A stretch of 37,688 nt of DNA, from NCBI GenBank assembly GCA_017452505.1, contig JAFTMI010000056.1:1-37688 (forward strand), given 5' to 3'. The notes under the pieces are model-generated. The model made no database searches, was not told where the DNA came from, and saw nothing but the letters and a program-made list of their open reading frames with translations. Position 1 is the stretch's first letter. Each line of letters opens with the position of its first letter. Positions 1,904 through 37,688 of the stretch are shown one piece after another. The stretch comes from Oscillospiraceae bacterium (GTDB lineage Bacteria; Bacillota; Clostridia; Oscillospirales; Oscillospiraceae). The translations under genes were made by a program, and so were the position numbers.

Positions 1904-1948
1904 TGTAATCACCTCGAAAAAATTTTAAGTACCGGTCCTTGTGCTTTC

Positions 1949-1977
1949 ACTATATACGAAACCAATGGTAGAATCAA
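1949..1977 (-). promoter_or_regulatory. Sigma-A type promoter of the XRE operon
   Basis: On the minus strand, TTGATT and TATAGT are separated by 17 bp, with the -10 box about 46 bases upstream of the start codon. Confidence 0.65.
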
Positions 1978-2071
1978 TAGACAGATATTTAAGAATATCG
2001 TCGAAATGGAGAACAATCGAATAGATGTCGTTTGTGAGTTGTGGCGAAAATGTTAAGTTTTTGAATTGTTC

Positions 2072-2100
2072 TTGCTTTTCGCTATTTGTTATATTATAAT
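2072..2100 (+). promoter_or_regulatory. Sigma-A type promoter of the small membrane protein gene
   Basis: TTGCTT and a perfect TATAAT are separated by 17 bp, and the -10 box ends 29 bases before the start codon at 2130. Confidence 0.7.
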
Positions 2101-2129
2101 CTATCCAGACAGTGTTGGGAGGTTTTTCT

Positions 2130-2507
2130 ATGGAAACGTATGAATTGAGCCAAGAGATACCGGAAGCTGAAGATTTAAAAGGTAAGAAATTCACTGCGTG
2201 TCTTTCGTATCTGTTTTGGTTTGCGGTGATTCCTATGATTTATTCCACCGAATCCAAGTTTATTAAATACCACGCAAACCAGGGCTTTGTGCTGGCTACT
2301 GTGGAGACTATTTTCTTGGTCATAACGGTGATTGTCAGTAAGATTCTGTGGTCTGCATCCAGGGCTACGAGCCTGCTGGTGGAAACCACGATGCTTATGG
2401 TCTTTGTTGGCGTGTTTGGGGTGCTGTCGCTAATCGGCATTTTTAATGTTATCCGTGGAAAGGAAAAACCCATTCCCACCTTTGGACATATTAAGCTTTT
2501 GAAATAA
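2130..2507 (+). CDS. Small DUF4870-like membrane protein
   Basis: This 125-residue protein has a short acidic N-terminus followed by three hydrophobic segments: about residues 24-38, 50-75 and 85-110. It ends in a basic tail. The run FIKYHANQGFVLA is the kind of motif found in DUF4870/TM2-like small membrane proteins (K/R-x-H-x-x-Q), which supports that family call. The start is the ATG six bases after GGGAGG; an in-frame GTG 18 bases upstream lies ahead of that site and is not used. It is monocistronic, with its own promoter and a terminator shared with yfhO. Function is unknown. Confidence 0.75.
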   Translation: METYELSQEIPEAEDLKGKKFTACLSYLFWFAVIPMIYSTESKFIKYHANQGFVLATVETIFLVITVIVSKILWSASRATSLLVETTMLMVFVGVFGVLSLIGIFNVIRGKEKPIPTFGHIKLLK

Positions 2508-2510
2508 ACA

Positions 2511-2536
2511 ACTGGCGTGCTTAGCAGCACGCCAGT
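2511..2536. terminator. Terminator between convergent genes
   Basis: A perfect ten-bp stem (ACTGGCGTGC with GCACGCCAGT) is followed by TTTTG on the plus strand. It lies between the convergent membrane-protein gene and yfhO and could serve both, although the minus-strand T-tract is interrupted. Confidence 0.8.
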
Positions 2537-2540
2537 TTTG

Positions 2541-6399: not shown

Positions 6400-7854
6400 T
6401 TAAATAATCAAACAAATCAAACCGTTTGCCCCTTCGTTTACCACCCGGGACAAAGTACCGCGGAATTTTTCCTGTACATCGGAGGGGGTACGAATGAGCT
6501 TGGAGGTCAGGCCGTCCTGGATCAGATCATAAACAGATCTGCCGAAAATATTACTCTGCCACAGCTTATCCGGGTCTTCAGAGGAAAGATAGGTGATAAG
6601 ATCCTGGGATTGCTGTTCGCCACCCACCATAGGACTGATCTCGGTGTCAATATCCACCCGGATCATATGAATGGAGGGCGCACCTGCTTTCAGCTTTACC
6701 CCGAATGCGCCGCCCTTGCGGACCACCTCCGGCGCTTCCAAAGTCATTTGCTCCGCATCGGGCATGACGATGCCGTAGCCGGTAGCCTTGGCAGAAGACA
6801 GGGCATCGGAAATCTTGTCATATTCCGCTTTTGCCTGGGAAAGCTCTGTAAGTAACGACAAAAGCTGGGCATCATTCTCAATAGGGATACCTGCCTTGCT
6901 GCTGAGGATCTGGTAGAATAGTTCTTCCGGGAAGCTGAGGCTGCAGCAAACCGTGCCGGTGGCCAGATCAATATTCCGCAGGGAATAATCCTGCACTGCA
7001 TCCAAAGTCCGCAGCCCACCCAAAACCTCGTCAGCTTGTGCAAGGGTGGTTATCTCCGAGAAATAGCGCAGCAGTGCTTCATACAAAGAGGCTTTTACAG
7101 GATGGTCAGCCTCCAAAGCATCCAACCAACGGGGCATATGGATGTGCAAAGCCTGCATAGGGAAGCTGTACAGCAGCTGCTTCAGCAGTTCTTTGATGTC
7201 ATCGGCATCCAATGTTTGGCAATCTGCGATCATAGCATCCATGCCAAATTCCTCCCGGATCTTCCGGCGTACCGCTTTGGCGGCATCACCGTCCGGCTGC
7301 TGGCTATTGATTATTACTAGGAAAGGCTTGCCGGTTTTTTGCATATCCCGGATGGCCCGCTTCTCCGCCTCCACATAATCGCTGCGGGGAATATCGGTGA
7401 CAGTTCCGTCAGTGGTGACTACCAGTCCAATGGTGCAATGCTCCTGCATCACCTTGGCCGTACCCAGCTCCGCCGCATCGGTCATGGGAATTTCATAATC
7501 AAACCAGGGAGTTGTCACCATCCGGGGTGAGCCGTCTTCCTCAATGCCCATAGCGCCCTCTACCATATAGCCTACGGAATCGATCATCCGTACCCGCAGC
7601 CGGGTGGTGCCGTCGGGGGAGATCTCCACAGCCTCCTCCGGAACGAATTTGGGCTCGCTGGTCATAATGGTTCGTCCGGAGCCACTTTGGGGCAGCTCAT
7701 CCCGGGCCCGTTCCTTGCGATAGGGCTCGTGAATATTGGGAATCACCATTTGTTCCATGATCCGTTTGATCAGGGTGGATTTGCCTGTTCGGACCGGCCC
7801 CACCACACCGATATAAATATTGCCGCCGGTTCGGGCAGCGATGCTTGCATACAT
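6400..7854 (-). CDS. spoIVA: Stage IV sporulation protein A (spore coat basement-layer ATPase)
   Basis: SpoIVA polymerises by ATP hydrolysis around the forespore and anchors coat assembly. This 484-residue protein has the family layout. A TRAFAC-type NTPase domain carries the Walker A motif GPVRTGKS (residues 19-26) and the conserved run RDELPQSGSGRTIMTSEPKFV. Then come the middle domain and the C-terminal segment ending in NEGANGLICLII, close to the NEGSGGLIAIIL end known from Bacillus. The length is just below the usual 492. The start has AAAGGAGG at ideal spacing. It is monocistronic, with a terminator immediately after it and a candidate sporulation promoter at 7878-7906. Its presence shows that the host lineage makes endospores. 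Confidence 0.97.
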   Translation of the reverse strand: MYASIAARTGGNIYIGVVGPVRTGKSTLIKRIMEQMVIPNIHEPYRKERARDELPQSGSGRTIMTSEPKFVPEEAVEISPDGTTRLRVRMIDSVGYMVEGAMGIEEDGSPRMVTTPWFDYEIPMTDAAELGTAKVMQEHCTIGLVVTTDGTVTDIPRSDYVEAEKRAIRDMQKTGKPFLVIINSQQPDGDAAKAVRRKIREEFGMDAMIADCQTLDADDIKELLKQLLYSFPMQALHIHMPRWLDALEADHPVKASLYEALLRYFSEITTLAQADEVLGGLRTLDAVQDYSLRNIDLATGTVCCSLSFPEELFYQILSSKAGIPIENDAQLLSLLTELSQAKAEYDKISDALSSAKATGYGIVMPDAEQMTLEAPEVVRKGGAFGVKLKAGAPSIHMIRVDIDTEISPMVGGEQQSQDLITYLSSEDPDKLWQSNIFGRSVYDLIQDGLTSKLIRTPSDVQEKFRGTLSRVVNEGANGLICLII

Positions 7855-8053: not shown

Positions 8054-10039
8054 ATGGCTACTGCAAGAAATGAACAATACGGAAACTCCAGCATATCCAT
8101 GCTGAAGGGAGAGGAGCGTGTCCGGAAACGCCCGGCAGTCATCTTCGGTTCTGATGACTTAGAAGGCTGTAAGCACGCGGTTTTTGAGATCCTCTCCAAC
8201 GCCATTGACGAGGCCCGTGAGGGTCACGGTGATACTGTCATCGTTACCCGGTATGAAGACCTCTCTGTTGAGGTGGAGGACTTTGGCCGTGGCTGTCCCG
8301 TGGACTATAACGAAAAAGAAAAACGCTACAACTGGGAACTGGTGTTCTGCGAAATGTATGCCGGCGGTAAGTACGGCGAAAACGGCGAGAACTATGAGTA
8401 CTCCCTGGGTCTGAATGGCCTGGGTTCCTGCGCCACCCAGTACGCATCTGAATTTTTTGATGCAACCATCCGCCGTGACGGCTTCCGCTACGACCTGCAC
8501 TTCGAAAAGGGCAGAAATAAGGGCGGCCTCAAGAAAGAACCCACTGACCGGGGCAAGAAGACCGGTTCTGTCTTCCATTGGAAACCGGACAAGCAGGTGT
8601 TTACCGATATCAATATCCCTGCTGAGTACTACCGGGATGTGTTAAAACGCCAGGCTGTCGTGAACCCCGGCATCACCTTTAAGTTCCGCAACCAGGTAGG
8701 AAGCCGCTTTGAAACGGAGGAATATTGCTATAACGATGGCATCCGCCAGTATATTGAAGAGTTGGTAGGGGATAACGCATTCACAATGCCCGTGTACTGG
8801 GAAACGGAACGCCGTGGCCGTGATGCGGAGAACCGCCCGGAAATGAAGCTGAAGATCACAGCATCGTTCTGCTTTTCCAAGCAGCTCAGCCATACGGAGT
8901 ATTACCATAATTCCTCTTGGCTGGAGTATGGCGGCAGCCCCGATAAGGCTGTCCGTTCCGGTTTTTTGGCAGCCTTTGATAAGTACCTGCGCGATAACAA
9001 TAAGTATAATAAAAATGAGAGCAAGATCATCTTCCAGGATATCCAGGACAGCTTGGTGATCGTCACCAACTGCTTCTCCACCATCGGCTGTTTTGAGAAT
9101 CAAACCAAGAAATCCGTCAATTCCAAATTCACCCAGGAGGCAATGACCGCTTTCTTCAAGGACAAGCTCCAGGTGTGGTTTATCGAGAATAAGCAGGAAG
9201 CCGACAGGGCAGCAGACCAGATTTTGGTGAATAAGCGGGCCCGTGAATCTGCGGAAAAAACCCGTACCAATGTGAAGAAGAACCTGTCTGCCAAGGTGGA
9301 TATTGCCAACCGGGTGCAGAAATTCGTGGATTGCCGCAGTAAGGACACCAATATCCGGGAGCTGTATATCGTGGAGGGTGACTCTGCGTTGGGTTCTGTT
9401 AAGCTGTCCCGGGATGCGGAGTTCCAGGGCATTATGCCTGTCCGCGGTAAGATCCTTAACTGTCTGAAGGCGGATTATGTTAAGATTTTTGCCTCTCCCA
9501 TTATCACGGACCTTATGAAGGTCCTGGGCTGCGGTGTAGAAGTAGAGGGAAAGAAAGCCAAGGAACTGAGCAGCTTTGATATTGATAACCTCCGCTGGAA
9601 TAAAGTGGTTATCTGTACCGATGCTGACGTGGACGGCTTCCAGATCCGCACTTTGATCCTCACAATGCTTTACCGGCTTTGCCCCAAGCTGATCCGGGAC
9701 GGCTATGTGTATATCGCGGAATCTCCGCTTTTTGAGATCACCTATAAGGAAAAGACCTGGTTTGCCTACAATGAGCAGGAAAAGGTGAAGATACTCAAAG
9801 ACTTAGAGGGCAAAAAGGTTACCATCCAGCGCTCCAAGGGTCTTGGTGAAAATGACCCGGAGATGATGTGGATGACCACTATGAACCCGGAAACCCGCCG
9901 GCTCATCAAGGTGATGCCCGAGGACGCAGAGCGCACCTCCCACTATTTTGATGTGCTGTTAGGTGACGCACTGAACGAAAGAAAGAATTTTATTGCAGAA
10001 AACGGCGCCAAGTATTTGGAACAGGCCGATATTTCTTAA
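8054..10039 (+). CDS. parE: Divergent type IIA topoisomerase ATPase subunit (ParE/GyrB-like)
   Basis: This 661-residue subunit contains a GHKL ATPase domain: EILSNAIDEA around Asn49, DFGRG at 76-80, the lid-type GLNGLG, and a QTK loop at about 350-352. A transducer domain follows, then a TOPRIM domain with E441GDSALGS and D523ADVDG for metal and DNA cleavage. It pairs with the next gene to form an ATP-driven DNA strand-passing enzyme. The length fits ParE better than long GyrB. It is clearly divergent: the almost invariant EGDSAGGSA reads EGDSALGSV, and GLHGVG reads GLNGLG. The start at 8054 is chosen because a consensus promoter overlaps the upstream frame; its ribosome binding site (AGG) is modest. 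It is the first gene of an operon with parC-like and yitT genes. Whether it acts as topo IV or as an additional third enzyme is unresolved. Confidence 0.82.
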   Translation: MATARNEQYGNSSISMLKGEERVRKRPAVIFGSDDLEGCKHAVFEILSNAIDEAREGHGDTVIVTRYEDLSVEVEDFGRGCPVDYNEKEKRYNWELVFCEMYAGGKYGENGENYEYSLGLNGLGSCATQYASEFFDATIRRDGFRYDLHFEKGRNKGGLKKEPTDRGKKTGSVFHWKPDKQVFTDINIPAEYYRDVLKRQAVVNPGITFKFRNQVGSRFETEEYCYNDGIRQYIEELVGDNAFTMPVYWETERRGRDAENRPEMKLKITASFCFSKQLSHTEYYHNSSWLEYGGSPDKAVRSGFLAAFDKYLRDNNKYNKNESKIIFQDIQDSLVIVTNCFSTIGCFENQTKKSVNSKFTQEAMTAFFKDKLQVWFIENKQEADRAADQILVNKRARESAEKTRTNVKKNLSAKVDIANRVQKFVDCRSKDTNIRELYIVEGDSALGSVKLSRDAEFQGIMPVRGKILNCLKADYVKIFASPIITDLMKVLGCGVEVEGKKAKELSSFDIDNLRWNKVVICTDADVDGFQIRTLILTMLYRLCPKLIRDGYVYIAESPLFEITYKEKTWFAYNEQEKVKILKDLEGKKVTIQRSKGLGENDPEMMWMTTMNPETRRLIKVMPEDAERTSHYFDVLLGDALNERKNFIAENGAKYLEQADIS

Positions 10040-10051
10040 AGGAGTGCAACA

Positions 10052-12301
10052 ATGGCACGAAAGAAGAAAGAACCTGAAAAGAGCAAAGCAAAAATCAATA
10101 CCGATAACATTATGGGCCTTGTTGGTTCCACTACGGAGCAGGCGATCTCCGAAACCCTGGAGATCAACTATATGCCCTATGCCATGTCGGTGATCGTCTC
10201 CCGAGCCATTCCGGAGATCGACGGCTTTAAGCCCTCCCACCGCAAATTGCTCTATACTATGTATAAAATGGGCCTGCTGAACGGCGGCAGAACCAAATCC
10301 GCCAACATCGTAGGCCAGACTATGCGCTTAAATCCCCACGGCGACGCAGCCATCTATGAAACCATGGTCCGTCTTGCCCGTGGCAACGAGACCTTGCTTC
10401 ACCCCTTTGTGGATTCCAAGGGTAACTTCGGTAAGGTCTATTCCCGGGATATGGCCTATGCAGCCTCCCGTTATACCGAGGCCAAGCTGGAAAGCTTCTG
10501 TAACGAGCTGTTCCGGGATATCGATTCCGATACCGTGGATATGGTGGATAACTACGATGCTACCATGAAAGAACCCAGTTTGCTGCCCACCACATTCCCC
10601 AATGTGCTGGTGTCTGCAAACCAAGGCATTGCTGTCGGTATGGCCAGCAATATCTGTTCTTTCAATTTGAAAGAAGTGTGCGATACCACCATCGCATTAA
10701 TGAATAACCCTGACCACGATATCCTGTCCACACTGCCCGGCCCCGACTTCTCCACCGGCGCAGAGCTGCTGTTTGACGAGACCACAACCCGGGAGATCTA
10801 TTCCACCGGCCGTGGCAGCTTCAAGCTTCGTGCCAAGTGGAACTATGTGAAGGGCGACAATGTGATCGAAATTACGGAAATCCCGTATTCCACCACCAGC
10901 GAAGCCGTTATGGATAAGGTGGCGGAGCTGATCAAGGCAGGCAAGATCAAAGAGATCGCCGATATGCGTGACGAAACCGACCTGGGCGGCTTGAAGCTGA
11001 CCATTGACTTAAAGCGTGGCGTAGAGCCGGAAAAGCTGATGCAGAAGCTTTTCCGTATGACTCCCTTGCAGGATAGCTTCGCTTGTAACTTTAATATCCT
11101 CATTGCCGGTATGCCCCGGGTTATGGGTATTGGCGAGATTTTGGAGGAGTGGACTGCCTGGCGCACGGATTGTGTGAAGCGCCGCCTGTTCTTCCAGATT
11201 CAGAAGAAGGAAGACCGCCTCCACCTGCTGAAAGGCCTGGAGCGGATCCTGCTGGATATTGACAAGGCTATCCGCATTATCCGGGAAACCGAATTGGAAA
11301 ACGAAGTTGTTCCCAATTTGATGATCGGCTTCGGTATCGATGAGATCCAGGCCAATTATGTGGCGGAAATCAAGCTGCGTAATATAAACAAGGAATACAT
11401 CCTCAAGCAGACCAAGGCTATCGGCGACCTGGAAAAGGAGATCGCCGACCTGCAGGATACCTTAAACAGCCACCGGAAGCTAAAAAATGTTATCATCAAG
11501 GAGCTGCAGCAGGTATCTGAAAAGTACGGCAAGCCCAGAAAGACCGAGATCATCTATGAAACTGCCGAGATCCAGGTGGATGACGAGGATGAGCAGATCC
11601 CCGATTATCCTGTGACTGTCTTTGTGTCCAAGGAGGGTTATCTGAAGAAGATCACCCCCCAGAGCCTGCGTATGTCCGGCGAACAAAAATTCAAGGAAGG
11701 GGATAGTCTGTCCTTCTCCCGGGAAACCTCTAATAAGGCGGAGCTGCTGGTGTTCACCAGCCTGTGCCAGTGCTATAAGACCCGCCTGTCCGATTTTGAG
11801 GACGGCAAGGCCTCTCAGCTTGGCGATTACCTGCCCCAGAAATTGGGTATGGACCCCGGCGAAACGGTCCTGCAGGTGTTGCTTCCCGGGGATTACAAGG
11901 GCTTTGTCCTGTTCTTCTTTGAAAACGGCAAGGGCGCAAAAGTGCCGTTGTCTGCCTATGAAACCAAAACAAACCGCCGCCGCTTGACCGCTGCTTTCTC
12001 GGACAAGAGCCCGCTAATTTCTGCGATGGTGATCGACGAGGACAAGCAGGTTGTTCTCTATTCTTCCGATAACCGGGCAGCCATTGTTTCCACAGCCCAG
12101 CTTACGCCCAAGACCACCCGTAATACCATCGGTGTGGCGGTGATGAGCCTGAAGAAGAAAGCCCAGCTTTCCGCTGTGCGCCCCTTGGAGGAGAGTGGTA
12201 TTACCAATGCCTCCCGCTACCGGAATAAGACCATTCCCACTGCAGGCGCGATTATCAAGGAAGAGGATTCCCAGGAAAAGCAAATCAGCTTTGATGTTTA
12301 G
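10052..12301 (+). CDS. parC: Divergent type IIA topoisomerase cleavage subunit (ParC/GyrA-like)
   Basis: This 749-residue protein forms the DNA breakage-reunion subunit. After a Lys-rich N-terminus, the winged-helix region carries the catalytic Tyr141 in AASRYTEAKL. The tower and coiled-coil segments lie at about 330-500, and a degenerate beta-pinwheel fills the C-terminus. No GyrA box (QRRGGKG) is visible, which favours a topo IV-like enzyme that does not supercoil. At the position of the quinolone-contacting Ser (GyrA Ser83) there is Ala99, in NPHGDAAIYE. The acidic partner residue, Glu103, is kept. The gene starts 12 bases after its partner with GGAG in between and is followed after eight bases by yitT, so the three form one operon. 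Confidence 0.82.
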   Translation: MARKKKEPEKSKAKINTDNIMGLVGSTTEQAISETLEINYMPYAMSVIVSRAIPEIDGFKPSHRKLLYTMYKMGLLNGGRTKSANIVGQTMRLNPHGDAAIYETMVRLARGNETLLHPFVDSKGNFGKVYSRDMAYAASRYTEAKLESFCNELFRDIDSDTVDMVDNYDATMKEPSLLPTTFPNVLVSANQGIAVGMASNICSFNLKEVCDTTIALMNNPDHDILSTLPGPDFSTGAELLFDETTTREIYSTGRGSFKLRAKWNYVKGDNVIEITEIPYSTTSEAVMDKVAELIKAGKIKEIADMRDETDLGGLKLTIDLKRGVEPEKLMQKLFRMTPLQDSFACNFNILIAGMPRVMGIGEILEEWTAWRTDCVKRRLFFQIQKKEDRLHLLKGLERILLDIDKAIRIIRETELENEVVPNLMIGFGIDEIQANYVAEIKLRNINKEYILKQTKAIGDLEKEIADLQDTLNSHRKLKNVIIKELQQVSEKYGKPRKTEIIYETAEIQVDDEDEQIPDYPVTVFVSKEGYLKKITPQSLRMSGEQKFKEGDSLSFSRETSNKAELLVFTSLCQCYKTRLSDFEDGKASQLGDYLPQKLGMDPGETVLQVLLPGDYKGFVLFFFENGKGAKVPLSAYETKTNRRRLTAAFSDKSPLISAMVIDEDKQVVLYSSDNRAAIVSTAQLTPKTTRNTIGVAVMSLKKKAQLSAVRPLEESGITNASRYRNKTIPTAGAIIKEEDSQEKQISFDV

Positions 12302-12309
12302 GAGGAACT

Positions 12310-13173
12310 ATGAATAAGAAATTGCGGCCTGTAGTTGAGCTACTGGAGCTTGTGGCAGGCTGTGCAGTGTTTGCTGTTGGATTTAATCTGTTTTTGATGC
12401 CCAATGACTTAAATGCCGGCGGCCTGTCCGGTTTGGCGATGGTGCTGTACCGGGTATTGGGTTTTGGTAGTGTGGGTGTTTTTATTGCGCTGATGAATGC
12501 ACCCCTGTTTATTGTCAGTGGCTTTAAGATCGGCAGGAAATTCTTTATCGGTTCTCTCATCGGTATGGGTCTTAGCTCCGTGTTTATAGACCTGTTTGCA
12601 TTCTTGCCGGTGGCAACGAAAGACCCGCTGCTCTCGGCACTCTACGGCGGCACGATCTGTGGCCTGGGTTTGGGGCTGGCATTCTTGTCCGGCGCATCCA
12701 CAGGCGGCTCTGACATTGCTGTGCGGCTGCTGAAACGGAAGTATCAGAATGTTCCTATCGGTACGATCAGTATTTGTTTTGATGCCTGTGTTATCATTAT
12801 TGCAGCGGTGGTGTTCAGGAACTTTTCCATCGCCCTGTACAGCGGCATTGCCAGCTTGGTTTCCGGAAAAATTGTGGATGCTGTGGTATACCATTTTGAC
12901 TATTCCAAGGTGGCATTGATCATCACCAAGAAACACGAGGAAGTGGCGCTGCAGATTGAGAAACAGTTGGATCGTGGCGCAACCTACCTCCACGGTGAAG
13001 GTTCTTATACCCGGGAGGAGATGATGGTGGTGCTCACTGCCGTCAAGCGTCACCAGGTATCTGATCTGAAACGGCTTGTGATGGAAGTAGACCCTGCAGC
13101 CTTTGTGATCATGCAGGAGGCCCACCAGGTTTTGGGCGACGGCTTCTCCCGCTATTCCAAGGATTCCCTGTAA
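12310..13173 (+). CDS. YitT family membrane protein (DUF161/DUF2179)
   Basis: This 287-residue protein has a membrane domain of about five hydrophobic helices in residues 10-200 (YitT/DUF161), including FNLFLMPNDLNAGGLSGLA and the glycine-rich SGASTGGSDI. A cytosolic DUF2179 domain follows (about 215-280), in which GATYLHGEGSYTREE is characteristic. Members are widespread in Firmicutes and their transported substrate is not established. GGAGG sits five bases before the ATG. It follows the ParC-like gene by eight bases, so it is the last gene of that operon, though no functional link to DNA topology is apparent. Confidence 0.88.
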   Translation: MNKKLRPVVELLELVAGCAVFAVGFNLFLMPNDLNAGGLSGLAMVLYRVLGFGSVGVFIALMNAPLFIVSGFKIGRKFFIGSLIGMGLSSVFIDLFAFLPVATKDPLLSALYGGTICGLGLGLAFLSGASTGGSDIAVRLLKRKYQNVPIGTISICFDACVIIIAAVVFRNFSIALYSGIASLVSGKIVDAVVYHFDYSKVALIITKKHEEVALQIEKQLDRGATYLHGEGSYTREEMMVVLTAVKRHQVSDLKRLVMEVDPAAFVIMQEAHQVLGDGFSRYSKDSL

Positions 13174-13226
13174 AGGCCCCCTTGCCTAAAGGGGGCTGGC
13201 AAACGCAAAGCGTTTGACTGGGGGAT
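13174..13226. repeat. GC-rich double-hairpin intergenic element
   Basis: This element directly follows the yitT stop. A hairpin of AGGCCCCCTT-type sequence pairs with AAGGGGGCT. A second stem, CAAACGC with GCGTTTG, is followed by GGGGG, which can pair alternatively with the first C-run. There is no T-run, so it is a poor classical terminator. The compact two-hairpin form resembles dispersed REP-like elements, but no second copy exists in this window. Confidence 0.45.
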
Positions 13227-16118: not shown

Positions 16119-17180
16119 ATGAAGTTGAATGTTTGTGTCCTGTTTGGCGGCATCAGCCCCGAGCATGAGGTATCTCTGCGTTCGGCTGAATCGGTGCTGA
16201 ACAATATGGACCCGGAAAAATATAATATCTTCCCTGTGGGCATTACCAAGGAGGGAAACTGGCTGCTCTACGGCGGCGCAGATTATTCTCTTCTGCCCAC
16301 CGGCCAGTGGCAGGATCACCCCAATAACCGTCCTGCGGCGATTTCTCCGGTCCGGGGTCAGGGTCTGCTGAGCTTTGAAGGTGACAGTGTGGTCCGGGAG
16401 CAGATCGATGTGGTATTTCCGGTTATCCACGGTGAAAACGGCGAGGACGGTGCTATCCAGGGCCTGCTGCAGCTTGCCGGCATTCCCTATGTAGGCCCCC
16501 ATATCTCTGCATCTGCTGTGGCTATGGATAAGACCCTTACCAAGCTTGTTGCGGACAATGCAGGCATTACTCAGGCTAAGTGGCTTTTGGTGCGCAACAG
16601 CGAACTGCAAAACCGTATGGACGATATTTTGGACACAGTGGAGAGTAAGTTCCCATACCCCGTATTCGTAAAGCCTGCCGGCACTGGCTCTTCTGTGGGT
16701 GTGTCCAAGGCCAATAATCGTGAAGAACTGAGGGACGCACTCCTGTCCGCCGGTATTTATGATGAAAAGATCCTGGTGGAGGAGTTTATCGACGGCCACG
16801 AAGTGGAAGTGGCCGTGATGGGTAACGAGACCCCGGTAGCCTCTGAGGTTGGCGAGATCGACTCCGGTGCAGAGTTTTATGATTATGATGCCAAATATAT
16901 TTCCGATACTTCTGTGGCCTATATCCCGGCCCGGATCCCTGCGGAGATTGCCGAGGAGCTTCGCCAGCAGGCCGTGCGGGTCTATACCGCCATTGGTTGC
17001 CAAGGCATGAGCCGTGTGGACTTCTTTGTCACTTATGCCGATAACCGGGTAGTGTTCAATGAGATCAACACCATTCCCGGATTTACCTCGATTTCTATGT
17101 ACCCCAAGTTGTTCGTGGCCAGTGGCATTCCTTATAATGAACTGATCGACCGGCTTTTGCAGCTTGCAATGGAGGCGTAA
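16119..17180 (+). CDS. ddl: D-alanine--D-alanine ligase
   Basis: Ddl joins two D-alanines with ATP to make the terminal dipeptide of the peptidoglycan precursor. The 353-residue ATP-grasp enzyme shows the family start (VLFGGISPEHEVSLRSAESV), the P-loop-like KPAGTGSSVGVSK, and the metal-binding end NEINTIPGFTSISMYPKLF. The omega-loop reads EFYDYDAKY (about residues 252-260), with the Tyr typical of D-Ala-D-Ala specificity rather than the D-Ala-D-Lac ligases of vancomycin-resistant species. It follows murC by 13 bases and lies one base from ywiB. Confidence 0.96.
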   Translation: MKLNVCVLFGGISPEHEVSLRSAESVLNNMDPEKYNIFPVGITKEGNWLLYGGADYSLLPTGQWQDHPNNRPAAISPVRGQGLLSFEGDSVVREQIDVVFPVIHGENGEDGAIQGLLQLAGIPYVGPHISASAVAMDKTLTKLVADNAGITQAKWLLVRNSELQNRMDDILDTVESKFPYPVFVKPAGTGSSVGVSKANNREELRDALLSAGIYDEKILVEEFIDGHEVEVAVMGNETPVASEVGEIDSGAEFYDYDAKYISDTSVAYIPARIPAEIAEELRQQAVRVYTAIGCQGMSRVDFFVTYADNRVVFNEINTIPGFTSISMYPKLFVASGIPYNELIDRLLQLAMEA

Positions 17181-17181
17181 A

Positions 17182-17604
17182 ATGAAAAAACAAGTTATGC
17201 TTTCTGTGAAGGGAACGCAAAGCTATATGGACCAGGATCCGGAGAACATCGAACTGGTGACGGAAGGTATCCTGGAGGATGTGGATGGCGGCTGGAAGAT
17301 CACCTATGCTGAAAGTGACTTGACGGGCCTTTCCGGTGTGGAAACCACATTTTTTGTGAAGGGGGACACCGTAACCCTTACCCGTACAGGTAAGCTTAGC
17401 TCCCAAATGGTGTTCAAGGAGGGCGTGAGCCAGGACTCTTTGTACCGAATGGAGTTTGGCGCTTTGATGATGACTGTATGCGCTACCCGTGTGGAATCTG
17501 ATCTCACAGAAGACGGTGGAACGATCGACCTAAGCTATAATATCAGCGTGGAGCAATCCGCCGCCGGTGTTATCGATTATCATTTGGATATCAAATCAAA
17601 ATAG
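17182..17604 (+). CDS. YwiB family beta-barrel protein (DUF1934)
   Basis: This 140-residue protein belongs to DUF1934, calycin-like beta-barrel proteins of unknown role represented by Bacillus YwiB. Supporting features are the opening VMLSVKGTQ, the central ETTFFVKGDTVTLTRTG and the end LSYNISVE. The ATG at 17182 is one base after the ddl stop, and its ribosome binding site GGAGGCG lies inside the last ddl codons. An in-frame ATG at 17164 overlaps ddl and has no such site. Co-transcription with murC and ddl is clear from spacing, but the sequence does not show a cell-wall function. Confidence 0.85.
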   Translation: MKKQVMLSVKGTQSYMDQDPENIELVTEGILEDVDGGWKITYAESDLTGLSGVETTFFVKGDTVTLTRTGKLSSQMVFKEGVSQDSLYRMEFGALMMTVCATRVESDLTEDGGTIDLSYNISVEQSAAGVIDYHLDIKSK

Positions 17605-17912
17605 AAAATGCGTGCTTTGGGTAACGCTCCATAAGGAAGTAATGCCCGAAAAAACGGCGTAATTTCCCGCCATTCGGCGTTAAAAATGCTCGAAATACAC
17701 AAAGTATTTCTGCGCTTTTTGCCTTGGCTGGCAGAAAATCTCACCATTTTCGGGTGCTGCGCAGTTTTGAAGTGGTAATTTTTTTGATTAACAAATAACA
17801 AAATTCCCGGAATGCTGACGCATTTCGGGAATTTTTTATGCAGTTAAGCGGAAAAAGAACCGTTCAAAACCAATACTTTCTTATGGAGTGTTGCCCTTTC
17901 AGCACGCATTTT
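17605..17912. repeat. 308-bp element bounded by imperfect terminal inverted repeats
   Basis: The left end (17605-17641) and the reverse complement of the right end (17874-17912) align along 37-39 bases. The first 12 (AAAATGCGTGCT) are identical, then there is a two-base gap, then about 20 of 23 match (CTCCATAAG shared). The left repeat starts directly after the ywiB stop codon and the right one ends two bases before the mfd stop. The element therefore fills the whole intergenic gap. Inside are a terminator at 17801-17837 and a 73-codon minus-strand frame without a ribosome binding site. The form is that of a MITE-like element or a long 3'-end inverted repeat; no target-site duplication is evident. 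Confidence 0.6.
17801..17837. terminator. Terminator between ywiB and mfd
   Basis: A 15-bp stem (AAATTCCCGGAATGC with GCATTTCGGGAATTT, one wobble) is followed by six Ts on the plus strand. The minus strand also has a T-rich exit. It serves the convergent ywiB and mfd transcripts and lies inside the inverted-repeat-bounded segment. Confidence 0.85.
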
Positions 17913-17914
17913 CT

Positions 17915-20900
17915 TTATACAGGAATACATTTTTTGTACCGCTCGATAAGGGCTTTGGATTGCCGCAGGCTATCCACACCCGGCGCAAGGCGCAGCCGCA
18001 TCGTGGGCTCCTTGGCGGAGGCAATGAGCTGTACCCGGTTCTTGTAATCCGGGTCGTTGCACAGGTTTGTGATGGCCTCGAAATTGAGGTTTGTCATGGT
18101 GAACTGCACCTCGGAAGCCTTCTGCCGAATGTCGCAGATGCCCACATTCCGGGCATTGGCCCGCAGCAGCGCGATCTCAACCAAATTGAGCACACCTTTG
18201 GGCGGTTCTCCGTAGCGGTCAACGATCTCATCCAGCAGATCATCGGCATCTTCCTGGGAACGGATCGCGGCCATGCGTCGGTACAGGTCCATCCGTTCTT
18301 CGCCCCGAGCTACATAGTCCTTATCCACATTGGCGGTCACATTCAGGTCAGCAGTGCAATCCGGCTCCTTGGCCTTTTCGCCTCGCTCCTCCAGAACCGC
18401 TTCGTCTAACAGCTTCAGATACATATCATAGCCCACGCTCATCATATGACCGGATTGTTCCGCACCCAGCAGATTGCCTGCGCCCCGGATCTCCAGATCA
18501 CGCATGGCGATCTTGAAGCCCGAGCCGAACTCTGCAAAGTCCCGGATAGCGGACAGCCGCTTCTCCGCTACTTCTGTAAGATTCTTGTCCGGACGGTAGG
18601 TGAAATAGGCATAGGCGTGGCGGGTAGAACGGCCCACACGGCCACGAAGCTGATGGAGCTGGCTGAGACCAAACCGGTCCGCGTTTTCAATAATCAAGGT
18701 GTTTACGTTGGCAATATCCAGGCCGGTTTCAATGATGGTGGTGCAGACTAAAACTTGGATCTCACCGTCAGCCATAGACCGCATCACATCGCTGAGGGCA
18801 TCTTCACCCATCTTGCCGTGGGCAACAGCCACAGAGAGACCGGGGATCCGGTTTTTCAGTGCCGCAGCACATCGGTCAATGGTTTCTACCCGATTGTGCA
18901 GATAGTAGACCTGGCCGCCCCGTTCGATTTCTCTGCGGATAGCATCGTCCAAAATTGCGTTGCTGTGTTCCATCACATAGGTCTGTACCGGATAGCGGTC
19001 TGCGGGAGGTTCTTCTATGGTGGACATATCCCGAATACCGGACAGAGCCATATTGAGCGTCCGGGGGATGGGGGTTGCCGACAGGGTCAGCACATCCACA
19101 CCCTTGGAGATCTCCTTCAAGCGCTCTTTATGGCTGACGCCGAATCGCTGTTCTTCATCCACAACCAGCAGGCCTAGATCCTTAAACTCCACGCTTTTTT
19201 GCAGCAGCTTGTGTGTGCCGATGATCAAGTCTACACCGCCGGCCCGAAGATTTTGCAGAGTCTTTTGCTGCTGGGTGGGGGTGCGGAAACGGCTGAGCAC
19301 ATCAATGTTGACAGGGAAACCACGGAACCGGGCCACAGCGGTCTGATAATGCTGTTGCGCTAAAACGGTAGTAGGCACCAAAATAGCCACCTGCTTGCCA
19401 TCCATAATGGCCTTCATCACAGCCCGGAGGGCAACTTCCGTCTTGCCAAAGCCCACATCGCCGCAAAGCAGCCGATCCATGGGGATGGGCGACTCCATAT
19501 CTTTCTTGATATCTGCGATACACCGCAGCTGATCGTCGGTCTCCGGATAGGGGAAATTGTCCTCGAATTCCTTCTGCCAGGGGGAGTCGGCAGCAAAGGC
19601 AAAGCCCTCCTGCCTGCGCCGGGCGGCGTAAAGCTGAATCAGCTCCCCGGCCATATCCTTGGCAGCTTTCCGGGCTTTTGCTTTGGTTTTTTGCCAGGTT
19701 TCCGTGCCGATTTTGTTTAATTTTACATTAGCATCTTCGCCACCGCCAATGTATTTGCTCACCAGATCCAACTGGGTGGCAGGTACAAACAGGGTGTCAG
19801 ACCCTTGATAGGCAATTTTAATATAATCCTTAACAGCACCGTCTACCTTGATTTGTTCCATGGCAACAAAACGGCCGATGCCGTAGTTTTCGTGAACCAC
19901 AAGGTCACCGGGACTCAAATCCGTAAAGGAATTGAGCTTTTGCCGGTTAGTGGCAGATTTTTTTGTGGATTTCCGCTTGGGTTCTGTCTTGCCGGTGAGC
20001 TGACCCTCGGTGAGAATCGCAAGCTTCCCATTGGGATATTCCATGCCGTAGGGAAGTGAACCCTCTGCAAGGAGGATTTGTCCCGGCTTGGGCATAGAAG
20101 TCAGCGGAATACAAAGAAATGCAGATAGTCCACGGCTGCTCAGCATCTCCTGCAGCAGCTCAGCTCTGCGCCGGGAACCGCACAGCACCAAACTGGAAAA
20201 CTCCATCTTCTGATAATGCTGCAGGTCACTGGCGGCAGTATCTAAATTGCCACCGTAGCCGGGTAACTGCTTTGCAGTCATAGGCAGCAGCTGATGGGGA
20301 AGGCAGTTCTCGGGATAGCTTGATGCGGCAAAGGTGTCCAGATACAACAGCGGATGTTTTTTGATGCCGTCGCAGAAATCCTCCCATTGCCATACAAAAT
20401 CGCACAGCTCACCGGCGACCAAGCCGCCTTGCAGCAGACTATCCAGCTGCATTCCCACATCCTCGACCCGGGTGCGGGCGGCCCGGTGCAGGCTGCCCTG
20501 GTCACAGAGAACCACCGTTGCGTTCTTCGGAATGTAGGAAACTGCAGTGGCGATTTCCGGATAAATCAGCGCCATATACCGGTCAGAAGCAGGATTTTGA
20601 ATGCCGTTTTGGTACTTTTCCAAATCCTTTTCCAGGGTCTTGATCAAATCCTCGTTGGGGTTCTTCCGCCTGCGCTGCCGGGCTATCAGCTGGTTAATAT
20701 CTTCGCACAAACCGGACAGCCCCTCCGGGTGCAGCCGGGGCTGGGTCTCACCAATGGGCAGAATGGTGAGTTCGTTTACATTCTCCGTGCGCCGCTGGGT
20801 GTCCGGGTCAAAATAACCCATGGTGTCCAGCTCATCACCAAAGAACTCTGCCCGGACAGGCTGTTCAGCGGCAGGGGAGTAAACATCCAAAATGCCACCT

Positions 20901-34743: not shown

Positions 34744-35283
34744 TCAATCAAATACATACATACCAAAAAGTCCAAGCAAACCCTCTCCGCAGTCATATTC
34801 CATACCGCAGACATCGGCCAGTTTCTTGACGAAGATGCAGTAGGCAGACATACAGGAATATTTCAGATCAGGGAAATTACAAGGCAGTCCCTGGGTTTGG
34901 GCACAAGGGGTACAGAGCGCACAGCCACTGGCTCCCACAATCAAACCATCGTGTCCGGCTTCACGCATTTTCTTTACAACGCGGATTTCGGATGCGTTAT
35001 GGCTTTTCTTTGCGTGCTTGATGGCAGGCACATCGGAATAGTCTGCTACCTGCCAGATAGTCTGCAAGACCAATGCTTTCTTATGAGCAAGGATGCGCTG
35101 CTTCATTTCCTCCGGACTACCGCAATCGGGTGGGCAGGAGTAATTCGCCCCATACTGACCGCAAAGGTTTTCTTCACAGTAGGGACGGAAGGATGGATCA
35201 AATACAATCTGCTTAGTATCTACAATTGCTGCTGCAGCAAAACCTTCATCGATTGCGCATTGGATCATTTTTGCTTCTGTCAT
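34744..35283 (-). CDS. DUF2284 cysteine-rich metal-binding protein
   Basis: This 179-residue protein has the Cys-rich pattern of DUF2284: CEENLCGQYGANYSCPPDCG in its first half, then GCALCTPCAQTQGLPCNFP and a final YSCMSAYC region. The first half is also given by its key residues Cys, Cys, Cys and Cys around CPPDCG. Such proteins are predicted to bind metal or an iron-sulfur cluster and often sit near corrinoid or methyl-transfer genes. The ATG at 35283 follows GAGGTG; the longer upstream frame has no such site. It is divergent from the cobalamin-riboswitch transcript, with its own consensus promoter. The function is unknown, and a link to cobalt or corrinoids is suggested only by position. 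Confidence 0.8.
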   Translation of the reverse strand: MTEAKMIQCAIDEGFAAAAIVDTKQIVFDPSFRPYCEENLCGQYGANYSCPPDCGSPEEMKQRILAHKKALVLQTIWQVADYSDVPAIKHAKKSHNASEIRVVKKMREAGHDGLIVGASGCALCTPCAQTQGLPCNFPDLKYSCMSAYCIFVKKLADVCGMEYDCGEGLLGLFGMYVFD

Positions 35284-35301
35284 ATGTAACACCTCACATA
35301 A

Positions 35302-35330
35302 ACTATACTGTTCTGTATGCATATTGTCAA
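35302..35330 (-). promoter_or_regulatory. Strong promoter of the DUF2284 gene
   Basis: On the minus strand, a consensus TTGACA and TATAGT are separated by 17 bp, ending 18 bases before the start codon. Confidence 0.8.
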
Positions 35331-35414
35331 GAAACAGGATCTTGTCTGTATACTTTTGATTTTTCTGATTTATATTGCGTTTTATTTCAAATATTAATGT
35401 TTCTTCTTTTTCGA

Positions 35415-35443
35415 TTGACATTTGCGTTGTATTCGTGTATACT
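35415..35443 (+). promoter_or_regulatory. Strong promoter of the cobalamin leader transcript
   Basis: A perfect TTGACA and TATACT are separated by 17 bp. The expected start near 35450 lies about 15 bases before the first aptamer. No other convincing promoter is visible until the HNH-repeat gene, so both aptamers should be on one RNA. Confidence 0.85.
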
Positions 35444-35464
35444 GTCCGTGCAAGTAAATATTCC

Positions 35465-35650
35465 GTTTAAGTGCCTGTGGACGCGGTAACAGCCCCACAG
35501 GAGAATAGAAAACCGGGTGTGAATCCCGGACGGTACCGCCACTGTATGCGTGGAGGCACCCACATTTGACGAAAGTCGGTCATTGGAGAAATCTGAGAAG
35601 GCTGTGTGGGAGCTAATGATGCGCAAGTCAGGAGAACTGCTTAAATGAGG
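35465..35650 (+). promoter_or_regulatory. Cobalamin riboswitch (canonical aptamer)
   Basis: The order of conserved blocks is that of the adenosylcobalamin/cobalamin riboswitch: GCCTGTGG near 35473, ACCGGGTGTGAATCCCGG at 35512-35529, then ACGGTACCGCCACTGT at 35530-35545, and AAGTCAGGAGAACTGC at 35625-35640. A closing helix P1 is formed by TTTAAG (35466-35471) with CTTAAA (35640-35645). The aptamer is of full size, about 180 nt. It is followed by a strong terminator at 35707-35744, so cobalamin binding probably stops transcription there. Confidence 0.95.
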
Positions 35651-35706
35651 TAAAAACACAAGGATCTGCAAGTACGGGTTCTGTGGTTTTTTGTTGCGGA
35701 AAAACG

Positions 35707-35744
35707 GCTGCAGCAACTCTTTGTAGGGTTGCTGCAGCTTTTTT
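35707..35744 (+). terminator. Expression-platform terminator of the first riboswitch
   Basis: A perfect 11-bp stem (GCTGCAGCAAC with GTTGCTGCAGC) is followed by six Ts. It lies about 60 bases after the aptamer, as an expression platform would, and far upstream of any coding sequence. Confidence 0.85.
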
Positions 35745-35806
35745 GCTGTGACCGTCTGTGTGGGTCTTATCCCCCTTGACCTGCTGATTGCCCTGGCGGT
35801 CACAGC
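35745..35806 (+). other. Long-range hairpin between the two aptamers
   Basis: GCTGTGACCG (35745-35754) and CGGTCACAGC (35797-35806) form a perfect ten-bp helix enclosing 42 bases. It starts right at the end of the first terminator's T-run. It could be a spacer domain, part of the second switch, or a competitor for folding. I do not recognise it as a known RNA. Confidence 0.5.
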
Positions 35807-35829
35807 CCGCAAACCAATTGAATATTGCT

Positions 35830-35927
35830 TTATCGATGCGGTAAGGTGATCCGGTCAGAATCCGGAACAACCGTCCATTGCTGTGTTTGGCATTTGCCAT
35901 AAGTCAGAGAGCCTGCTGCGTCGATTG
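35830..35927 (+). promoter_or_regulatory. Second, compact cobalamin-riboswitch-like aptamer
   Basis: An 8-bp closing helix (ATCGATGC at 35832-35839 with GCGTCGAT at 35918-35925) encloses the cobalamin-type core in order. These are GGTGATCCGGTCAGAATCC and its partner CCGG (key block GTCAGAATCCGG), CCGTCCATTGCTGT in place of CGGTCCCGCCACTGT, a small GGC/GCC hairpin, and AAGTCAGAGAGCCTGC in place of AAGTCAGGAGACCTGC. The large peripheral domain of the canonical switch is missing, so it is about half the size. This resembles the AdoCbl-variant/class-II type. A terminator follows at 35951-36001. Confidence 0.6.
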
Positions 35928-35950
35928 GGTCTATCACGCTTTGACAGGAG

Positions 35951-36001
35951 AGTGCAACCTAATTTATCCGTACTTGAGGATAAATAGGTTGCACTTTTTT
36001 G
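35951..36001 (+). terminator. Expression-platform terminator of the second aptamer
   Basis: AGTGCAACCTAATTTATCC and GGATAAATAGGTTGCACT form an 18-bp stem with one bulged A and an eight-base loop, followed by a run of Ts. It lies 40 bases before the HNH-repeat gene. Confidence 0.88.
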
Positions 36002-36040
36002 TTGATCTGATAGCCACAAATCAGTAAAGGAGGGATGCAA

Positions 36041-36223
36041 GTGACACCGGAAGAGAAGAAGGCCTGGGCGGAGGACCTTCTGCGACAAAAGTTTGCGGAG
36101 CTTGGAAGGCTTCCTACAAAAAAAGACTTCGACAATGCTGCTTGCGCCCAAATCAAGGCTTACCTTGGTCCGTGGCCCCGCGCGTTGGAGTCTGCCGGAT
36201 TGAAACAACCCAAGGAAAAGTAA
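36041..36223 (+). CDS. Small HNH-endonuclease-associated-repeat protein
   Basis: This 60-residue protein consists of a single repeat of the HNH_repeat/HNEAR type: LRQKFAELGRLPTKKDFD, then IKAYLGPWPRALESAGL. These match the usual LGR.Ptk.d and FG.W..AL..AGL pattern, which forms a small helical DNA-binding unit. There is no nuclease domain. GTG at 36041 is the start, seven bases after AAGGAGGG; an ATG at 36035 touches that site and is too close. It is the first gene after the tandem riboswitch leader and 30 bases before the secreted protein, so it shares their cobalamin control. A regulatory DNA-binding role is possible but inferred. Confidence 0.75.
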   Translation: MTPEEKKAWAEDLLRQKFAELGRLPTKKDFDNAACAQIKAYLGPWPRALESAGLKQPKEK

Positions 36224-36253
36224 TCTAAGAGCATAAGAAAGGACGATTCTATT

Positions 36254-37688
36254 ATGCGAACCACTAAGAAAATTTTGAGTATGATCCTCGCCTTTGTGAT
36301 GGTACTGGGTCTGCTGCCTGCCACCGCCTTTGCAACGGAAAGCCAGTATGTGTATATCTCCGTCAGCTTTGACGGACAGTACATTGATGACAAAAGCGGA
36401 AGCCCCCTGGTGTATGTCCCCGTATCCTTTGAACAGATTGAATCAATCAATCTGGAGGAATATAACCTGGGCGATTACCTGTATGACCCGGATGGTGATG
36501 GCAATTATGAGACCACTGCTCTGCAACTCATCATATATGCCCACGAGAACATCTACGGCGGCAGCTGGAGTGATGTCAACTTTACCGGTGGTGCAGGCGG
36601 CTCCTACTTCCAGGGTGGTATCTTCGGTTTCGACGAGAATCTGAACTACTTTCTCAACGGACAGTTCCCCATTGATGAGGCTCTGTCCGAAAACTCATCC
36701 TATGCAGTAGGTGCAACCTCTGACCACATTGTTCTGGAAGCCGGCGATTTCATTGATATCGCCAGTTTTACAAGCTATGCTTTCCTGTGGGACAGCGCTG
36801 CAGGCTTCCATCTGTTTGCAGATGAGAACGATGGGTTTGTCCACAACTACACTGCTCAGGTCGGTGAGGCCGTGCCCGTGAAGCTGCTTCGCTCTTACAG
36901 CAATATGGTTGACGGCAGCCCCGTTCTGGCAGAAGAAAGCGGTTACGAGCTCTTCTACGGTGCAGCATTCGGTACTGCCGACGGCACACTTACCACAGAT
37001 GACAGCGGGTGTGCATCCGTTACCTTTGACCAGGCAGGCACTTACTACCTGTGGTGCGACGGCAATTATGGCATTGATGCAGATACCGAGAATATCGTAT
37101 CCTCTCCGGCCTATGCCACCATTACCGTAGCCGCACCTGAAGCACCTCGTCAGCCCCAGGATGTCAGCACAGTTTTGAATGCAACTATGGCAAAAATGGC
37201 AGAAACCGTAACGGAGCCTGCTTTCGGTACTACCGCCGGTGAATGGACCGTATTCGGTCTTGCCCGTGGTGGTTACTATGCCAAGGATAATGCCTATTTT
37301 ACCGATTACTACAACCGCATCGTGGAAACAGTTAACACGGAAGCAGCATCTGTCAATATGAACGGCGCTCTTCACAAAAATAAATCTACCGAAAGCTCCC
37401 GATTGATCGTGGCCCTGTCCGCCATTAGCAAGGATGCTACCTCTGTAGGCAACTGGGATCTGGTGGAAGCTTACAGTGCAAACGGTTTTGACTGGATCAA
37501 AAAGCAGGGCCTCAACGGCACCATCTGGGCATTGATCGCTCTGGATTCCAATAATTACGCAACCACCGATACCACCATCCGACAGCAGTGCGTAGATGCC
37601 ATTTTGGCTGCCCAGCACACTGACGGTGGCTGGTCTCTGACTGCCAATAAGGATACGACCTCTGATCCGGATATCACCGGCATGGCGC
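36254..37688 (+). CDS. Secreted DUF4430-like plus alpha/alpha-toroid protein, candidate corrinoid binder (partial)
   Basis: The gene is open to the window edge, with 478 codons visible. A signal peptide (about 1-27, TAFA cleavage) leads to a DUF4430-like beta domain (about 30-185), with FLNGQFP and DHIVLEAGDFIDIASF as its most typical parts. An Ig-like beta segment follows (about 190-285). The last part (about 296 onward) is helical, with prenyltransferase/squalene-cyclase-type repeats; QHTDGGWSL begins at residue 454 and SDPDITGMA is at the end. These folds, in the opposite order, make up transcobalamin and intrinsic factor. With the cobalamin riboswitches upstream, capture of a corrinoid at the cell surface is the favoured inference. 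A cell-wall anchor, if present, lies outside the window. AAGAAAGGA upstream of the ATG is the likely ribosome binding site. Confidence 0.8.
   Translation, partial: MRTTKKILSMILAFVMVLGLLPATAFATESQYVYISVSFDGQYIDDKSGSPLVYVPVSFEQIESINLEEYNLGDYLYDPDGDGNYETTALQLIIYAHENIYGGSWSDVNFTGGAGGSYFQGGIFGFDENLNYFLNGQFPIDEALSENSSYAVGATSDHIVLEAGDFIDIASFTSYAFLWDSAAGFHLFADENDGFVHNYTAQVGEAVPVKLLRSYSNMVDGSPVLAEESGYELFYGAAFGTADGTLTTDDSGCASVTFDQAGTYYLWCDGNYGIDADTENIVSSPAYATITVAAPEAPRQPQDVSTVLNATMAKMAETVTEPAFGTTAGEWTVFGLARGGYYAKDNAYFTDYYNRIVETVNTEAASVNMNGALHKNKSTESSRLIVALSAISKDATSVGNWDLVEAYSANGFDWIKKQGLNGTIWALIALDSNNYATTDTTIRQQCVDAILAAQHTDGGWSLTANKDTTSDPDITGMA

Follow-up and report, generated by a model that had tools for sequence, protein, structure and literature searches.

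The terminal 2.3 kb of a 37,688-nucleotide contig from an Oscillospiraceae bacterium (GenBank assembly GCA_017452505.1, contig JAFTMI010000056.1; hereafter the window) hold, with good probability, the front end of an operon for scavenging of corrinoids (B12/cobinamide), in which binders composed of alpha/alpha-toroid and DUF4430-type domains, a surface tether and hand-over to an energy-coupling factor (ECF) transporter would be combined. Judged from sequence comparison, it is very likely that the operon serves corrinoid uptake and likely that the secreted toroid protein binds the corrinoid directly. The window is the entire contig G000:C55, one of 72 in an assembly with completeness of 82.5% and contamination of 6.1%, and the contig end falls inside the gene of interest. 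The following features were recognized:

35415..35443, + strand: sigma-70-type promoter-like site, TTGACA-17-TATACT
35452..35658, + strand: cobalamin riboswitch aptamer (RF00174)
35706..35744, + strand: predicted intrinsic terminator after the first aptamer, hairpin with T run (-28.3 kcal/mol, z -6.9)
35819..35960, + strand: second, short cobalamin-type aptamer, RF01482-like
35951..36001, + strand: predicted intrinsic terminator after the second aptamer, hairpin with T run (-32.7 kcal/mol, z -8.3)
36035..36223, + strand: 62-aa protein with a single HNH_repeat (PF18780)
36254..37688, + strand: secreted DUF4430-like / Ig-like / alpha-alpha-toroid protein, 478 codons, 3′ end lost at the contig end
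36254..36337, + strand: its signal peptide, MRTTKKILSMILAFVMVLGLLPATAFA, by inspection
36335..36838, + strand: its N-terminal DUF4430-like domain (alignment A10, Pfam calls of relatives, weak hhalign match)
36840..37130, + strand: its linker domain, Ig-like by inspection, with weak DUF4198 similarity (E 0.022, under cut-off)
37151..37687, + strand: first 179 residues of its toroid domain, including the motifs QHTDGGW and DPDITGM (toroid profile E 2.4e-64)

The probable continuation of this truncated gene run is displayed by an ortholog of the toroid protein in a genome of the same genus (G010, locus L022, 7414-10215), sharing 67% protein identity (E 3.4e-196). There the leader, consisting of an RF00174 riboswitch (87.5 bits) and then a second aptamer, is followed by an HNH_repeat protein (E 3.1e-11), the toroid protein of 933 aa with C-terminal Dockerin_1 domain (E 2.1e-6, over cut-off), a 207-aa Cohesin protein (E 1.4e-6, over cut-off) with membrane anchor seen by inspection, a 370-aa DUF4430 lipoprotein (E 1.2e-17; lipobox by inspection), a 297-aa EcfT-type protein homologous to the T genes of other loci, and an EcfA-EcfA-S fusion. 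A preceding interpretation of the window from its letters (the sequence-only reading) had expected extension of the contig to reveal an ECF or BtuCDF-type transporter, and the EcfT-type and EcfA-EcfA-S genes lying in the same gene run of the ortholog bear this out; the wall anchor which it also expected takes, in the ortholog, the form of a dockerin plus membrane cohesin instead of a sortase signal.

In the leader of the window, two predicted B12-type switches stand in series before the genes, each with its own terminator. The first had been called a canonical cobalamin riboswitch, and scores 89.5 bits with RF00174 (E 5.1e-21) against a gathering score of 31.5. The second, described as cobalamin-like, reaches only 27.3 bits with the AdoCbl riboswitch model RF01482, under the gathering score of 50; by comparison it is a real structure despite this score, as compensatory changes (at least one two-sided change preserving pairing) are found in 14 of 34 consensus pairs among eight sequences from distinct loci, including the window (the others being L022, L024, L035, L042, L044, which is truncated at the 5′ end, L062 and L072). 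The terminator following it was absent from the list of the pattern scan and found by folding energy, and both terminators sit within the stretch which the sequence-only reading had taken as a single transcript. As for the consensus promoter claimed there, the site matches 11 of 12 consensus positions, but the scan found 2 promoter-type sites versus 1.7 expected in shuffled sequences, so the consensus by itself is weak; the call is supported because the site is placed directly 5′ of the first aptamer and because a promoter-like site is also present in the leaders of L024 and L062.

The mode of action may be pictured as follows. B12 would turn the operon off through the two serial riboswitches, each acting with its own terminator, while corrinoid scarcity would allow read-through and secretion of the toroid protein, whose cavity may hold the corrinoid as in transcobalamin, with its own N-terminal DUF4430 domain, the separate lipoprotein or both serving as a lid. 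Because the plain DUF4430 lipoprotein of the ortholog's operon is a second candidate partner, the domain in reversed order within the toroid chain need not be the lid. Membrane cohesin and the dockerin on the toroid protein would retain the latter at the cell, and the ligand would be handed via the DUF4430 lipoprotein to a CbrT-like S component of the ECF transporter.

The gene set recurs widely among relatives. A toroid-profile scan of named bacterial genomes gave at least 532 confirmed relatives, the best 80 of which (L034-L113) were analysed, and 62 of these loci have at least 4 kb 3′ of the toroid gene. Within 8 kb downstream, the DUF4430 lipoprotein was found in 55, EcfT in 54, EcfAA in 53 and S in 52 of the 62, and the first three occur all together in 53. 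As the 80 loci are the top-ranking ones of at least 532 relatives of a mostly ECF-linked seed set, their ECF share is biased upward. An evenly drawn comparison set from the class (118 genomes, own genome included) is fairer than the 80 loci, yet tests the toroid-DUF4430 link and not the ECF one: at E <= 1e-20 for the toroid and E <= 1e-15 for the DUF4430 lipoprotein, 42 genomes possess the former, 47 the latter and 38 both (Fisher p 7.6e-18), with the toroid alone in 4, the own genome among them. In 36 of the 38 genomes having both, the two genes lie on the same strand within 6 kb.

A division of labour other than the one proposed would be that the toroid protein, instead of binding free corrinoid, takes it from host or bacterial carrier proteins or merely scaffolds the DUF4430 lipoprotein, the latter being the true binder. 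The lipoprotein is more conserved (mean column identity of 67% in 28 aligned rows, versus 49% in 35 rows of toroids), and 9 of the 118 genomes contain it without a toroid at the thresholds used. Against this, toroid and DUF4430 are fused into one chain in L026, L110 and L067, in the order known from animal carriers (toroid, then DUF4430; both lie within residues 114-573 of L110), and are repeated within one chain in L025 and L078, as expected if both touch one ligand, which makes this option improbable. The L026 fusion (9109-10746) has hydrophobic segments between its two domains, by inspection, and adjoins ECF S and T genes; it also exhibits weak similarity, far under cut-off, to the NCBIfam SCO2321 family membrane protein, a term absent from the literature found.

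The putative tether can be followed in relatives. Besides the ortholog, a membrane-cohesin gene is present in 18 of the 80 loci, every time together with a dockerin on the toroid protein, as detected by a home-made profile partly seeded from these same loci. Counted over the 77 loci with intact 3′ end of the toroid gene, both partners occur in 18, dockerin only in 16, cohesin only in 0 and neither in 43 (p 1.3e-8). Dockerin and Cohesin are over or near the Pfam cut-off in the relatives scanned. As a pairing of domains the putative tether is well supported in relatives. Numbers of Dockerin_1 matches per genome are 20, 28, 26, 1, 5, 1, 1, 8 and 12 for G010, G060-G066 and G068, respectively. In G062 (which holds only 1.2 Mb), G064 and G065, the sole dockerin detected is that of the toroid protein; the only cohesin match of G065 is the membrane cohesin, the two of G064 are the membrane cohesin and one within the toroid protein, and G062 has the membrane cohesin and a weak match elsewhere. 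In these three genomes the dockerin-cohesin linkage thus seems to serve this system only. Outside the toroid protein, 19 dockerin matches of G010 fall into giant open frames (1,850-4,196 aa), as do six of its eight cohesin matches.

The same domains could make the toroid protein a component of a cellulosome or of the cell surface, binding carbohydrate or wall, with incidental regulation by B12. The presence of dockerin and cohesin and the 5-28 dockerin matches in 6 of 9 cohesin-type genomes agree with such a role; it is nevertheless quite unlikely, given that the 3 genomes whose toroid dockerin is the sole one detected offer no cellulosome to join, and that the complete DUF4430 and ECF set is equally common without dockerin on the toroid protein (32/38 loci) as with it (21/24). 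The tether is like cellulosome pairs in its Dockerin_1 and Cohesin domains, over cut-off in L022, and unlike them in its cargo, a putative vitamin binder, and in the lack of any other detected dockerin in 3 of 9 genomes. A dockerin-cohesin pair holding a vitamin binder would be a novel use of a linkage known from the cellulosome.

The scavenging operon might even, as a tentative and rather doubtful extension, produce a self-assembling antenna, toroid copies docking head to tail into a B12-trapping strand that runs from the membrane through the wall. Several toroid proteins combine an internal cohesin-like domain with a dockerin, and such a strand would start at the membrane cohesin, product of the next gene, beside the ECF transporter, cellulosome-type linkage then being used as a vitamin-gathering device produced only under B12 scarcity. 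The internal domain turns up in L045 (E 0.0036, under cut-off), in G063, where it reaches the cut-off with its neighbours, and below cut-off in G064 and G068; Pfam scans gave no internal cohesin-like domain in L022, L034, L042, L049 and L054.

As to the ligand, S components were combined into a profile (10 sequences, nine belonging to operons of this type and one to the second ECF set of the own genome, L033) and compared with solved structures. The best match was CbrT (6FNP, E 1.1e-17); RibU (1.2e-5), a further S component with the entry 4hzu (4e-5) and FolT (0.42) came next. The 6FNP entry is the vitamin B12 transporter ECF-CbrT of Lactobacillus delbrueckii (PMC5997447). The system discussed here resembles ECF-CbrT in its homologous S component and ECF module, and is unlike it in the frequent fusion of S with two ATPases and in the secreted binders placed ahead; the portion of the ECF-CbrT description consulted (PMC5997447) mentions no extracellular binder.

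Import of cobalt or of another corrinoid-related ligand, to which the toroid and DUF4430 proteins would then bind, has to be weighed at this point. Cobalamin riboswitches control cobalt transport too. Among 10 EcfT-type proteins scanned, CbiQ (PF02361), the "cobalt transport protein" family, is over cut-off in 6 and under it in 1, and the first ATPase is over the cbiO cut-off, both families serving ECF transporters generally. On the other side, the S components are CbrT-like and match ECF_trnsprt and ECF-ribofla_trS, a CbiM-type subunit is not listed among the proteins scanned, and secreted toroid proteins have no obvious part in uptake of a metal ion; cobalt import is accordingly regarded as very unlikely.

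Cobalamin riboswitches accompany the operon beyond the window. They were sought with the RF00174 model, a home-made regular expression having failed to detect 4 of the 6 control loci. For 50 of the 80 loci the entire genome was searched with stricter filters, the best 150 places being listed, mapped by coordinates and read in sequence; direct scans were added for 18 of the 50. Among the matches listed, RF00174 lies on the same strand and at most 2 kb upstream of the first recognized operon gene in 39 of the 50 loci. Direct scans of 7 further loci detected it in L035, L042, L052, L053 and L055 and gave none in L069 and L102. Where that search reported a single RF00174 match for the genome (16 genomes), a riboswitch stands at the operon in 13, provided that in 5 of the 13 (L058, L074, L082, L097 and L112), for which the match of the genome is unlisted, the riboswitch of the locus is taken as that match. 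The own genome has two matches, one in the window and the other at C10:71971-72190 (minus strand), directly preceding the sole Pfam-called DUF4430 gene of this genome, a lipoprotein. The same locus (G000:C10 = L033:8435-12689) contains a second ECF set of T-type, AA and S genes, divergent from the lipoprotein gene. Since CbiD gave no match in the own genome (incomplete, 82.5%) and one B12-binding domain was found there, the organism fits a corrinoid user that imports. In L061 three RF00174 elements follow one another on the same strand at intervals of roughly 1 kb (1285-3538), each succeeded by a DUF4430-bearing gene, with a toroid gene afterwards, and a fourth (12969-13214) stands before EcfT.

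The domain assignment of the secreted protein rests largely on its family. The partial toroid of the window shares 82% identity with the complete one of L022, for which Pfam gives two hits under cut-off, to Prenyltrans (E 3.3e-5) and to SQHop_cyclase_C (E 2e-4); a Prenyltrans match at E <= 0.01 is obtained for 10 of 11 family members scanned, the best being 1.1e-8, and at E <= 1 Pfam matches the window protein to neither Prenyltrans nor DUF4430. At the position of its N-terminal domain, Pfam calls DUF4430 over cut-off in L109 of Ruminococcus bromii (E 1.3e-6), under cut-off in L045 (3.8e-4), L049 and L054, and not at all in L034, L042 and L072. A profile of 11 such N-terminal domains matched the DUF4430 lipoproteins weakly (hhalign probability 21%, E 0.0011), with overlap at the NG-x-F/Y-P ... 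GD stretch. Thus, the toroid part of the domain pair postulated in the sequence-only reading stands, whereas the DUF4430-like label is weak and is owed to relatives, not to the Pfam result of the window protein.

DxDD is the catalytic motif of cyclases. Its presence had been named earlier as contrary evidence, and it was searched for as DxDD[TCSA]; 83 of 93 toroid domains contain a different motif, DxD[ILVMTS][TS][AG][MLV]. A catalytic role of the toroid, as a terpene-cyclase- or prenyltransferase-like enzyme with a lipid or the corrinoid tail as substrate, has in its favour that squalene-hopene cyclases are the closest solved structures to the toroid profile (E 1.9e-12), but its probability is negligible: DxDD[TCSA] occurs in 0/93 toroid domains, on which ground terpene cyclase was rejected, and the protein is secreted and encoded within an uptake operon. 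The signature of eukaryotic cobalamin binders, about VDTxAMAxLA, resembles the DPDITAMALQAL stretch of this motif and may offer a lead.

Several observations weigh against the assignment of the window to a corrinoid-scavenging operon of this kind, in addition to the bias of the ECF share. At E <= 10, neither the toroid nor the DUF4430 profile retrieved a solved structure of transcobalamin or intrinsic factor, and Pfam scans of 11 toroids (E <= 0.01) did not list PF01122. No Pfam family is matched by the EcfT proteins of L027, L033 and the ortholog locus L022. The gene set is incomplete in 9 of the 62 loci (L052, L055, L069, L075, L088, L101, L102, L106 and L108). In the set of 50 loci, L100 and L101 have the riboswitch farther upstream, at about 2.7 kb, L085 has it on the opposite strand, and in 8 (L047, L071, L080, L081, L084, L092, L106 and L109) it was not located among the matches listed. 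Searches of the own genome, which is 82.5% complete, found neither the rest of the toroid gene nor dockerin nor cohesin, and for that reason the continuation of the window's operon is deduced from the ortholog. The riboswitch of L085 (6771-6916, minus strand) is upstream of the operon and adjoins a Clostridiales-1 RNA at 7035-7193.

The idea of such systems is not new. A paper of 2007 defined the SLBB superfamily and described secreted Gram-positive proteins which combine SLBB, the type of the transcobalamin C-terminal domain, with an alpha/alpha toroid in either order, have Ig and beta-propeller fusions and a second paralogous SLBB gene, and reside in operons with CbiO- and CbiQ-like genes; B12 scavenging was predicted for them (PMC1796856). 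The central proposal of the sequence-only reading, a corrinoid-capture operon, is consequently an independent rediscovery, as a transcobalamin-like Gram-positive B12 scavenger with either domain order is already contained in that paper; it gains from the transporter genes, the S component and the missing cyclase motif, but the idea has been in print since 2007. The proteins considered here share with the published ones the toroid in the chain; an operon containing ECF genes plus a further DUF4430 gene is likewise found in L022 and in 53 of the 62 relatives' loci. As far as the main text of PMC1796856 goes, it makes no mention of cohesin, dockerin, cellulosome, riboswitch, HNH or lipoprotein, and what is added here to the content seen of it comprises the dockerin-cohesin tether, the HNH_repeat gene, the tandem riboswitches, the CbrT-like S component and the counts. 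The whole system is therefore a variant of a kind already known, albeit as a prediction only. No report of the tether was found, a weak negative since most subscription journals were outside the search; with the same scope, no experimental study of these proteins was found by title or opening of the abstract (HNH_repeat was not searched), and no paper joins DUF4430, transcobalamin and bacteria.

Animal transcobalamin, intrinsic factor and haptocorrin consist of a toroid and a DUF4430-type domain (PMC1796856, PMC4350170). L026, L110 and L067 share their domain order; the window protein differs from the animal carriers in its reversed order and extra domains and has no significant sequence match to them, and the uptake route would be an ECF transporter, according to genes of relatives, instead of endocytosis. 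It was proposed in 2007 that animals acquired transcobalamin from Gram-positive bacteria (PMC1796856). If the present assignment is true, a common operon of Clostridia employs bacterial proteins related to the B12 carriers of humans, and this proposal becomes testable at the bench.

Surface lipoproteins of BtuG/BtuH type in Bacteroides bind corrinoids beside the B12 transporter (PMC12751083, PMC8941943), and corrinoid binders of Bacteroides have been purified and measured (PMC12751083). The predicted binders described here would likewise be surface proteins next to a B12 transporter, and are unlike BtuG/BtuH in having other domains and another cell envelope. BtuG is a beta-propeller, and the PQQ-type propellers of two relatives are reminiscent of it. 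In these loci (L023:3228-9221 and L024:1904-5368) the same N-terminal domain is joined to a PQQ-type beta-propeller replacing the toroid, with a riboswitch upstream and DUF4430 and ECF genes downstream. To our knowledge, corrinoid capture by Gram-positive gut bacteria is poorly known. Records of three strains of R. bromii (L074, L109 and L113) have a DUF4430-toroid-dockerin version ahead of ECF genes, and this species is described as unable to make B12 (PMC6231298).

The short gene between the leader and the toroid gene had been read as a DNA-binding-type protein of 60 residues; the gene is present, but its product has 62 aa and belongs to the HNH_repeat family (Pfam E 7.4e-11), with no nuclease domain listed for it in the Pfam scan. 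Its codon changes are mostly synonymous in comparison with six close relatives (synonymous to nonsynonymous 17:4 versus L022, 16:2 versus L044 and 16:8 versus L072), and the two kinds are about equal versus four distant relatives (20:18 versus L034). By this codon comparison it is a maintained protein, perhaps with the role of a regulator. HNH_repeat mini-proteins with the motif IKA(F/Y)LGPWPRALE were matched in 25 of the 80 loci, where their usual place is between the riboswitch and the gene for the binder.

Two scans of viral contigs gave no relative. At 1.7 kb past the operon of L022, an open frame (17178-19001) was noticed by inspection that opens Cas9-like (GLDIGIASVGWA) and reaches DHIVPYS. 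On the minus strand of the window, a predicted metal-binding protein of the DUF2284 family (34744-35421, E 9.3e-38) is transcribed divergently and has its intergenic region in common with the riboswitch operon.

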